Of a stretch of 64,000 nt of DNA, positions 4,383-7,450 are shown piece after piece. A program made the position numbers and the translations under genes. A model generated the notes under the pieces. It saw only the letters and a list, made by a program, of their open reading frames with translations, searched no databases and was not told the origin of the DNA. Every line of letters starts with the position of its first letter. The stretch's first letter is position 1. Source of the stretch: Bradyrhizobiaceae bacterium (GTDB lineage Bacteria; Pseudomonadota; Alphaproteobacteria; Rhizobiales; Xanthobacteraceae); assembly GCA_947481685.1 (NCBI GenBank), contig CANKHA010000004.1:62001-126000 (forward strand). The letters are read 5' to 3'.

Positions 4383-4397
4383 GTTCTTGTTATGTTC
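4383..4397 (+). promoter_or_regulatory. LexA (SOS) box, alphaproteobacterial type
   Basis: A perfect direct repeat GTTC-N7-GTTC, with halves at 4383-4386 and 4394-4397, ends 24 bases before the radical SAM start codon. This is the established LexA site of Alphaproteobacteria. With eight fixed bases, a chance match in this 191-bp gap is unlikely (under about 1% assuming even base use). Confidence 0.7.
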
Positions 4398-4420
4398 ATG
4401 CGGCAACGCTATGGTGAGAT

Positions 4421-5689
4421 ATGGCTCAGTCTTCAGCCCTGAAACGCCCGCCGGCACTGCTGCACCCCCAGGCGGAGTGGGAAACGGTCCGCCACCCCGA
4501 TCGCGCGTCCCCCAGCGCGCGCACCGGGGCAAAACCGCCTCGCACTCTTGCTGACCGCACAACGGAGCTGCCCTCCGCGCCGGCGGGCGATTTGGCTGAT
4601 CTGGGCTTGCTTGGCGCTGCGGTGGATCGGGAGCGCCGCCGCGGACGCGGGACGCTGTCGAATGCCTCCGGACGCTATGAATCGCTGGCGCGCATCGCCT
4701 TCGACGACGGCTGGCGCAGCCTGGAAGACCTGCCGCCGTTCAAAACCACCGTGACGATCGACTCCACGCGCAAGATCATCACGCGGAATGAGTCTCCCGA
4801 TATTTCCTTCGACCGCTCGATCAATCCGTATCGCGGCTGCGAGCATGGCTGCGTTTATTGCTTTGCGCGGCCGACCCACGCCTATCTCGGATTGTCGCCG
4901 GGGCTGGATTTTGAATCCCATTTGTTCGTGAAGCCGGATGCCGCGGCGCTGCTGGAAAAGGAGCTGTCGGCGAAAAACTATGAGCCGCGCACCATCGCCA
5001 TCGGCACCAATACCGATCCATATCAGCCGATCGAGCGAAAATACCAGGTGATGCGCCAGATCCTGGAAGTGCTGGAGCGCGCCGGTCATCCCGTGGGCAT
5101 CGTCACGAAGTCCGCATTGGTATTGCGCGATATCGATATTCTTTCCCGCATGGCGGAGCGCAATCTGGCCAAGGTTGCAATGTCGGTTACGACGCTCGAC
5201 CCGCAACTGGCCCGCACCATGGAGCCGCGCGCTGCGACGCCGGGCCGCCGTTTGGAAACCTTGCGGCGCCTGTCAGCAGCGGGCATCCCGACCACCGTGA
5301 TGGTCGCGCCGATCATTCCTGCGGTGACCGACCCCGAGATGGAACGCATCCTCGAAGCTGCCGCCACCGCCGGCGTGCAGGGCGCGGGTTATGTGTTGCT
5401 GCGTTTGCCGCTGGAAGTCCGCGATCTGTTCAGGGAATGGCTTGTGGCCAATTTCCCCGACCGTGTTGAGCACGTGTTCAAGCTGATCCGCGATATGCGC
5501 GGCGGCAAGGATTACGACTCTACCTGGGGCAAACGGCAAACGGGTGCGGGTCCCTATGCCTGGATGCTCGGCCGCCGGTTCGAGATTGCCTGCGAAAAGC
5601 TTGGGCTCAACAAGATCAAGCGGCCGATGACGACCGAGCATTTCGATCCGCCGTTCAAGGCCGCGAAGCAATTGAGTTTGTTTGGTTGA
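4421..5689 (+). CDS. PA0069-family (SplB-like) radical SAM protein
   Basis: A 422-residue radical SAM protein of the group often named PA0069 family, distantly related to spore photoproduct lyase. The 4Fe-4S/AdoMet-binding cysteines form C-x3-C-x2-C in GCEHGCVYCFARPTH near residue 143. Following blocks (IAIGTNTDPYQPIE; VAPIIPAVTD) match the group. The N-terminal 100 residues are basic and variable. The reaction is unknown. The SOS box just upstream suggests a DNA-damage role, but that is inference from regulation and the SplB relationship. It overlaps no upstream gene and is followed 2 bases later by the VOC gene, which may be co-transcribed and hence also damage-inducible. Confidence 0.85.
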   Translation: MAQSSALKRPPALLHPQAEWETVRHPDRASPSARTGAKPPRTLADRTTELPSAPAGDLADLGLLGAAVDRERRRGRGTLSNASGRYESLARIAFDDGWRSLEDLPPFKTTVTIDSTRKIITRNESPDISFDRSINPYRGCEHGCVYCFARPTHAYLGLSPGLDFESHLFVKPDAAALLEKELSAKNYEPRTIAIGTNTDPYQPIERKYQVMRQILEVLERAGHPVGIVTKSALVLRDIDILSRMAERNLAKVAMSVTTLDPQLARTMEPRAATPGRRLETLRRLSAAGIPTTVMVAPIIPAVTDPEMERILEAAATAGVQGAGYVLLRLPLEVRDLFREWLVANFPDRVEHVFKLIRDMRGGKDYDSTWGKRQTGAGPYAWMLGRRFEIACEKLGLNKIKRPMTTEHFDPPFKAAKQLSLFG

Positions 5690-5691
5690 GC

Positions 5692-6129
5692 ATGGATCGT
5701 CCTCTGCTCACCGTGGTGACTCTCGGCGTGCGCGACGTCAGCGCGAGCGCAGCCTTCTACGAGCGCCTCGGTTTTGCGCGGAAGGTGCGCGCGACCGGTG
5801 CTGAAATCGCTTTCTTCGACGCCGGCGGGCTGGTGCTGGCATTGTGGGACTGGTCGAAGCTGGGGGAGGACGCGGGTTTGCCGCTGGAGCCTCGCCCGCA
5901 GGCATTCCGCGGTTCGACGCTCGCCTGGAACCGCCGCAATGCGCAGGATGTGGATGAAAGTTATCGGCGGGCGATCGAGGCAGGCGGTACACCTTTACGT
6001 GCCCCCGAACCGACCGACTACGGCGGCTATCGTGGATATTTCGCCGATCCCGACGGCCATGCCTGGGAAGTCGTCACGGCGCCGGGATTCGATTTCACCA
6101 GCGACGGCAGGCTGATCCTTCCGGAATAA
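5692..6129 (+). CDS. VOC (glyoxalase/bleomycin-resistance fold) protein
   Basis: A 145-residue single VOC module pair: beta-alpha-beta-beta-beta units at about residues 5-60 and 68-135, with GVRDVSASAAFYERLGF opening the first and YFADPDGHAWEVV closing the second. The final Glu in AWEV is in the usual metal-ligand position. Substrate cannot be told; close relatives are annotated only as VOC or glyoxalase-like. The ATG at 5692 follows the upstream stop codon by 2 bases; a TTG two codons earlier would overlap that stop and is less likely. Position suggests it is in the transcription unit of the SOS-controlled radical SAM gene. Confidence 0.85.
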   Translation: MDRPLLTVVTLGVRDVSASAAFYERLGFARKVRATGAEIAFFDAGGLVLALWDWSKLGEDAGLPLEPRPQAFRGSTLAWNRRNAQDVDESYRRAIEAGGTPLRAPEPTDYGGYRGYFADPDGHAWEVVTAPGFDFTSDGRLILPE

Positions 6130-6144: not shown

Positions 6145-6645
6145 CTAGTGCCGTGCTGCTTTGCCGTCATCGACCTGCTTTTCCACCGCTACGCTCAGGC
6201 GCTGATAGACGCCAAGCCCCAGCACCAGCAGGATCGCGGCGATCAGCAGGAAGGTCGGATAGAACAGTTGCTCGACGTTCTCCTGGCTGACGCGAAAGAT
6301 CGTCACCAGCGCCTCCAGGAACACCGCGATTGCAATGGTGGAGATGAAGCGCGTGAGGCTGCGGCGCGCCTCCGATGCGACGCGCAATTCGCGCCCGCGC
6401 ACCACTTCTTCCTCAATCAGATATTTTGCGACATCAAAGACGGCGATGGCGACGACCACATAGCCGATGCCATTCAGCGCCGATATTCCGAGATGCTGGC
6501 GCGACCAGGCGGCAACGATGAAGTCGAATACCGCGCTACCGGCCAGTACAAGGGCGAACAGCGCAAGCACCGTGGCGGCTATGCCGAAGATGGCGCGGGA
6601 GATGAAATCGAAACTGCCGTCGGGCGCTCTGGTTTTCATGGCCAT
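6145..6645 (-). CDS. Four-helix membrane protein of unknown function
   Basis: 166 residues with four predicted membrane segments (about 18-42, 55-75, 97-118 and 128-148) and a charged, amphipathic stretch between helices two and three (IEEEVVRGRELRVASEA). The pattern recalls PsiE-like membrane proteins, but I cannot make that assignment firmly. It starts with MAMKTR, so translation could begin at codon 1 or 3. It is convergent with the VOC gene and divergent from rnhB. No function is assigned. Confidence 0.7.
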   Translation of the reverse strand: MAMKTRAPDGSFDFISRAIFGIAATVLALFALVLAGSAVFDFIVAAWSRQHLGISALNGIGYVVVAIAVFDVAKYLIEEEVVRGRELRVASEARRSLTRFISTIAIAVFLEALVTIFRVSQENVEQLFYPTFLLIAAILLVLGLGVYQRLSVAVEKQVDDGKAARH

Positions 6646-6751: not shown

Positions 6752-7450
6752 ATGAGTCGTTCCCTCATCCGTGTTCTGCGTTTGCCGCTGTCCGAGGAGG
6801 TCGTTCGTCCGACATTTAATCGGGAGCGGCGCGCCATGAAGCGTGGTGTGTTCCCGGTCGCCGGATGCGACGAGGCGGGCAGGGGTCCGCTCGCCGGTCC
6901 GGTGGTTGCTGCGGCGGTGATCCTCAATCCCGAGCGCATTCCGCGCGGCCTCAACGACTCCAAAAAGCTGACCATGGAAGCGCGCGAGGCGCTCTACGCC
7001 AAGATTTGCGCGACAGCCGAAGTCGCGGTGGCCTTCGGCTCGACCGACCGCATCGATCGCGACAACATCCTGCGCGCCTCGCTGTGGGCGCTGGCGCGTG
7101 CTGTTGATGCCTTGCCGCTGCGCCCGAAACTGGTCTTCGTCGATGGCAACCAGAAAATCGATTGCTGTTGCGATTGCGAAACCGTGGTCAGCGGCGATGC
7201 GCTGGTACTGTCCATTGCGGCCGCCTCCATCGTCGCCAAGGTGACGCGCGACCGGCTGATGATGCGGCTCGGCGCCGCGCACCCGGGCTACGGCTTCGAG
7301 CGCCACATGGGTTACAGCGTGCCGGAGCATTTCGCCGCGTTGACCAGGCTCGGTCCGACCATCCACCATCGTCGTTCCTTCGCGCCGGTCCGGGCCGCCT
7401 GGGGCGTGGCCGACGCCGAGGAAGCCCGCATTCAGACTCTGGCGCTGTAG
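6752..7450 (+). CDS. rnhB: Ribonuclease HII
   Basis: Cleaves RNA in RNA-DNA hybrids, including single ribonucleotides in DNA. The 232-residue protein has the acidic catalytic motif in [15 protein letters not shown] (Asp-Glu pair), the LNDSKKLT block, the second acidic region around VFVDGNQ, and [12 protein letters not shown]. An N-terminal extension precedes the conserved core. An internal ATG at 6836 would also leave a full core, but relatives share the PTFNRER-like stretch before it, so the longer start is kept. It is divergent from the membrane-protein gene. Confidence 0.93.

Follow-up and report, generated by a model that had tools for sequence, protein, structure and literature searches.

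We find that a radical SAM enzyme of the PA0069 family is encoded directly downstream of a conserved LexA box and is very likely under SOS control. The enzyme resembles spore photoproduct lyase in its predicted fold, but the residues with which the lyase completes its reaction are not conserved. On balance we read the gene as specifying an SOS-induced radical SAM enzyme that probably acts on DNA damage or on a product of it.

Within the window (the whole 64-kb stretch of DNA that was analysed), an exact match to the alphaproteobacterial LexA (SOS) box GTTC-N7-GTTC, GTTCTTGTTATGTTC, occupies positions 4383–4397 of the forward strand, and 23 bases separate its end from the ATG of the radical SAM gene (4421–5689, forward strand; 422 aa). 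The gene for a VOC (glyoxalase-like) protein follows on the same strand (5692–6129; 145 aa), with its ATG two bases past the radical SAM stop at 5689. Thus, both the perfect box just 5′ of the radical SAM gene and the spacing of the VOC gene were as the original prediction had stated. Given the two-base gap, the VOC gene is probably carried on the same transcript. Beyond it lie a reverse-strand ORF (6145–6645) and a forward-strand ORF (6752–7450) that we take to be rnhB, encoding RNase HII; in this genome rnhB is probably outside the control of the box at 4383–4397.

The radical SAM ORF scored 558 bits against NF033668 (rSAM_PA0069; cut-off 360) and covered model positions 1–348 of 348, which confirmed the family proposed for it; it also matches the Pfam family Radical_SAM (PF04055). 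The VOC ORF matches Glyoxalase (PF00903) in Pfam, its nearest solved relative, 3bqx, is named only as a ‘glyoxalase-related enzyme’, and residues D119, D121, H123, W125 and E126 are conserved in 42 copies. Neither protein was matched by PADLOC. The radical SAM gene, which encodes an iron-sulphur radical enzyme, is widespread in bacteria, and the present copy is unremarkable.

Taken alone, the LexA box is not significant: shuffles predict 1.85 exact matches to GTTC-N7-GTTC in the window, where one is present, and the genome contains 65 matches, fewer than the 72 obtained when the pattern is reversed. The genome count was rejected as evidence for LexA control, as it shows no excess. The box acquires significance through its conservation. 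It is present in exact form at all 30 of the nearest loci, the window's own among them, mostly 23–25 bases before the likely start, and at 97 of 100 loci spanning the order and the class. In the full set of distinct homologue loci, which is nearly all alphaproteobacterial with a few members labelled otherwise, the 400 bases preceding the match contain an exact box at 184 of 196 loci, compared with 8 of 3095 control stretches (0.26%). The controls were equally long pieces of these loci, so that surrounding sequence serves as the control for loci that share descent and are not independent draws. The spacer of the box is conserved as well, giving the consensus GTTCTTGTTTTGTTC in this set. Several of the 12 loci without an exact box carry one with a single mismatch, and loci L193, L205 and L207 are titled as non-alphaproteobacterial. 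The search upstream of homologues that had been proposed as a check therefore places the gene, with a GTTC-N7-GTTC promoter box conserved among its orthologues, in the alphaproteobacterial LexA regulon. Separately, a record titled Mycobacterium sp. KBS0706 (L209; NZ_VCCH02000001.1) was seen to contain an alphaproteobacterial-type PA0069 gene together with an alphaproteobacterial LexA box; this record is probably misnamed or mixed.

The genome from which the window derives contains lexA, and exact boxes precede recA, lexA, ssb/uvrA, imuA and recN; a weaker candidate box precedes parC. Among the proteins identified here, ImuA did not reach its curated cut-off, and the scores of RecN and UvrA come from ORFs truncated at the locus end. 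By hand count, LexA is present in about 138 of the 143 genomes of the class that carry the radical SAM gene. A Caulobacter genome included as a control also gave a match to the family. Three further consensus-like LexA boxes in the genome adjoin no recognised SOS gene: GTTCCTGTTATGTTC, GTTCTTGTATTGTTC and GTTCTTATTCTGTTC, located at G000:C11:4138–4152 (L029), G000:C79:4204–4218 (L287) and G000:C2:546–560 (L006), respectively. The last of these lies 43 bases 5′ of a 255-aa ORF that has no NCBIfam match at 1e-10.

Outside the Alphaproteobacteria the gene is preceded by a different motif. Among 39 loci from other Pseudomonadota, CTGT-N8-ACAG was found upstream at 29 (against 1 of 567 controls) and the alphaproteobacterial box at none. 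CTGT-N8-ACAG corresponds to the published betaproteobacterial SOS box (PMC6595937). At one of the ten loci lacking it (L242; G557:C1:77664–80916), the PA0069-family gene is preceded by the motif TTAG-N6-TACTA, as TTAGTAATAATACTA. That motif is presumably the LexA box of Xanthomonadaceae. A second locus from the same genus (L240) was observed to be without TTAGTAATAATACTA. Regarding individual homologues, those of Sinorhizobium meliloti and Paracoccus denitrificans are preceded by the alphaproteobacterial box, that of Aeromonas caviae has a box of the CTGT-N8-ACAG type (CTGTATATATAAACAG), and that of Legionella adelaidensis has neither of the two. The box changes together with LexA specificity, which points to continued LexA control and would otherwise be hard to explain. 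Because the box is conserved, because the motif switches outside the class and because the genome holds both lexA and further regulon boxes, we regard SOS control of the radical SAM gene as very likely on comparative sequence evidence, and LexA control as originally predicted is strongly supported.

SOS control of this gene is not new, having been predicted in print in 2012, when the differing motifs of alpha- and betaproteobacteria were used to argue that splB is under LexA control in both classes (PMC3323433). SplB of COG1533 has since been described as SOS-regulated in several groups and species, Bacteroidetes among them (PMC8565304), and a radical SAM protein has been assigned to the Gram-positive core SOS regulon and to that of Balneolaeota (PMC7739468). 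LexA also binds a Streptomyces venezuelae gene, matched to ours by its radical SAM description only, and mitomycin C induces that gene (PMC9380542). The splB, SplB and radical SAM genes of these reports were equated with the PA0069 family by description rather than gene by gene. Papers naming PA0069 or Rv2578c did not address function. PA0069 itself is probably a member of the Pseudomonas aeruginosa LexA regulon and Rv2578c probably has an SOS box, but neither point entered the evidence weighed here. Since the regulatory link is already published, the locus itself is ordinary. Its wider interest is that the gene has been kept under LexA control through changes of the LexA motif and occurs in most of the larger alphaproteobacterial genomes sampled.

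The cluster motif CX3CX2C is found at C140, C144 and C147 and is invariant in 239 of 239 sequences. Together with the PF04055 match and a structural model, this identifies the protein as a member of the radical SAM superfamily, characterized by CX3CX2C in a partial TIM barrel. The AlphaFold2 model, built from 64 homologues (mean pLDDT 82, pTM 0.79), is confident outside approximately the first 110 residues. When the model was compared with the whole PDB, the best six fold matches were all structures of spore photoproduct lyase, with E values of about 1e-9 to 2e-8, 17–18% identity and TM 0.58–0.60 by target length, which indicates a fold relationship to the lyase. The next match was SkfB at 4e-7, and NifB likewise appeared in the second tier. 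Searching PDB sequences with the protein or its alignment returned no convincing relative, and the lyase was found by fold comparison alone; a profile comparison with the lyase aligned 60 columns at 49% probability.

Neighbouring genes were counted by searching the loci with the window's own proteins. At 43 of 204 loci the VOC gene directly follows the radical SAM gene, always on the same strand and with gaps of 0–289 bases, and these loci belong to Xanthobacteraceae and some other Hyphomicrobiales. At 152 of 207 loci the radical SAM gene is followed, on its own strand, by an rnhB homologue, which makes rnhB the most conserved downstream neighbour in Alphaproteobacteria, and where both genes occur the VOC gene sits between the radical SAM gene and rnhB. 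The common gene order also includes moaB upstream (60 loci) and ccrM further downstream (48 loci), counts for which many loci have too little flank. At the 39 loci from other Pseudomonadota, a search of the 1500 bases downstream of the radical SAM gene detected no homologue of either rnhB or the VOC gene. The VOC gene is thus a lineage-limited neighbour rather than an operon partner adjacent in most loci, and rnhB is the more conserved of the two. The partnership suggested for the VOC protein looks weak, given that its gene adjoins in only a few Hyphomicrobiales families and, where rnhB is also present, separates rnhB from the radical SAM gene, and we consider it unlikely that it is an essential partner.

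From the likely SOS regulation of the gene and the predicted lyase-like fold of its product, it is a reasonable inference, and a plausible one, that the enzyme may repair or modify a DNA lesion. A direct role on damaged DNA seems to us somewhat probable. Counted against a lyase-like DNA role are the low sequence identity, the short profile alignment and the missing hydrogen-donor cysteine (see below), and SOS genes are not all repair enzymes, which counts against the repair reading. The enzyme could instead be an SOS-induced radical SAM protein with a substrate other than DNA, for example RNA, a small molecule, a protein or a species of the nucleotide pool; in lineages that have the VOC protein, the product would be passed on to it. 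Radical SAM enzymes are very diverse, the second-tier fold matches SkfB and NifB are peptide and cofactor enzymes, and a glyoxalase-fold gene does adjoin directly at a minority of loci; however, the first-tier matches are all a DNA repair enzyme, the VOC gene is absent at most loci, and the neighbours include rnhB and often ccrM, although this arrangement may be plain synteny. We regard a non-DNA substrate as possible but fairly unlikely.

The conserved position of rnhB raises the further possibility that the functional unit is the radical SAM enzyme with RNase HII, acting on ribonucleotide-containing or related lesions, and that the VOC protein is a passenger. This would fit the frequency of rnhB downstream on the same strand, the gaps between the two genes, which are mostly below about 350 bases where the VOC gene is absent, and the placement of the VOC gene between them when it is present. 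However, the gaps range from −44 to over 1000 bases, rnhB went undetected at the 39 loci from other Pseudomonadota even though 29 of these have an SOS box, and in the window a reverse-strand ORF intervenes. We judge such a unit to be improbable.

In spore photoproduct lyase, a fourth cysteine donates a hydrogen to the thymine radical and a tyrosine passes the radical on (PMC3742179, PMC5368176), and both residues are required for normal turnover (PMC3742179). The reference for residue comparison was the sequence of 4FHC (Geobacillus), which was matched over its full length by the B. subtilis lyase as query; because the profile comparison aligned only 60 columns, the register rests on spacing and motifs rather than on coordinate superposition. 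In the Geobacillus enzyme 34 positions separate C140 from K174, the lysine of the TK motif, and the same spacing is found here between T196 and K230. Of 194 mainly alphaproteobacterial sequences, 170 have threonine at the position of T196, which varies elsewhere. A fourth cysteine (C141 in B. subtilis, C140 in Geobacillus, or the clostridial alternative C74) is not conserved, the conserved cysteines being the three of the cluster only; the clostridial position is not used either, because no fourth cysteine is conserved anywhere. The position of the relay tyrosine (Y98 in Geobacillus, Y99 in B. subtilis) is phenylalanine in this protein; the same 194 sequences divide into 171 with phenylalanine and 23 with tyrosine, and elsewhere the two residues are about equally frequent. 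The SAM-contacting tyrosine, Y96 of the Geobacillus enzyme, corresponds to the invariant Y146.

Lacking a conserved fourth cysteine and usually having phenylalanine for the relay tyrosine, the PA0069 family would not be spore photoproduct lyase by mechanism and would be lyase-like at most in the first reaction step. Judged from its sequences and the model, it is lyase-like in fold and is not spore photoproduct lyase of the known mechanism. Of the kinship to the lyase that had been suggested, the fold therefore stood, while the hydrogen donor was absent and the relay tyrosine mostly so. A true spore photoproduct lyase or close equivalent, splitting 5-thyminyl-5,6-dihydrothymine through a Cys–Tyr relay as the name splB implies, would accord with the best structural match, the invariant CX3CX2C and Y146, and the TK and EP motifs held in common; set against this, both relay residues are mostly replaced and the lesion is typical of spores, and we find this very improbable. 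Weakest of all, and scarcely credible, is an explanation in which the box matches by chance and LexA does not control the gene; in its favour are the box numbers in the window and the genome, and against it are the conservation among homologues and the motif switch outside Alphaproteobacteria.

According to the reading that we prefer, of an SOS-induced enzyme acting on DNA damage or its product, LexA bound to the box at 4383–4397 would in the undamaged cell repress the radical SAM gene and, by read-through, the VOC gene. RecA filaments would bring about cleavage of LexA, followed by synthesis of both proteins, as the comparative evidence on regulation suggests. A [4Fe-4S] cluster held by C140, C144 and C147 would cleave SAM to generate a 5′-deoxyadenosyl radical, which would then be used on a substrate bound in the spore photoproduct lyase-like barrel. 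This substrate would most likely be a DNA base or dinucleotide carrying damage, or a damage product, the hydrogen donor would be other than the cysteine of the lyase, and the VOC protein would be a lineage-limited accessory and not a required part. We suggest only tentatively, and with some doubt, that the PA0069 family could represent a second, distinct kind of light-independent radical SAM DNA repair enzyme, SOS-induced and with the lyase fold, that reverses or marks a lesion without a Cys–Tyr relay and in growing cells rather than spores.

Compared with known systems, the protein is a full-length match to the PA0069 family of NF033668, differing at most in the variable, low-confidence N-terminal 60–70 residues or so. 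The Rv2578c family (NF038135) is related, scoring 235 bits, far under its cut-off of 430, and its QP and EPR signature residues differ from those of this protein. Three actinobacterial Rv2578c-like relatives were examined, and upstream of two of them, from Nonomuraea (L281; CTCGAACTGCTGTTCTAA) and Arthrobacter (L282; TTCGAACATACATTCGAA), we observed palindromes resembling actinobacterial SOS boxes, whereas the Tsukamurella relative (L280) had no such palindrome upstream. Spore photoproduct lyase of Bacillus and Geobacillus (4FHC and mutants) shares the fold, the CX3CX2C motif, the Y96-equivalent tyrosine and the TK and EP motifs; at about 17% identity, the PA0069 family differs from it in the fourth cysteine and the Y98 position, and occurs in non-spore-forming organisms under LexA. 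The ‘splB’ of the 2012 study, described as a spore photoproduct lyase homologue, has a class-specific LexA box upstream, as found here (PMC3323433). It was called a photolyase and the trait was said to be unseen in gammaproteobacteria, whereas here the gammaproteobacterium A. caviae has the box, and the lyase residues are not conserved in the PA0069 family. The residue comparison calls for caution with the name photolyase, under which the enzyme is often listed.
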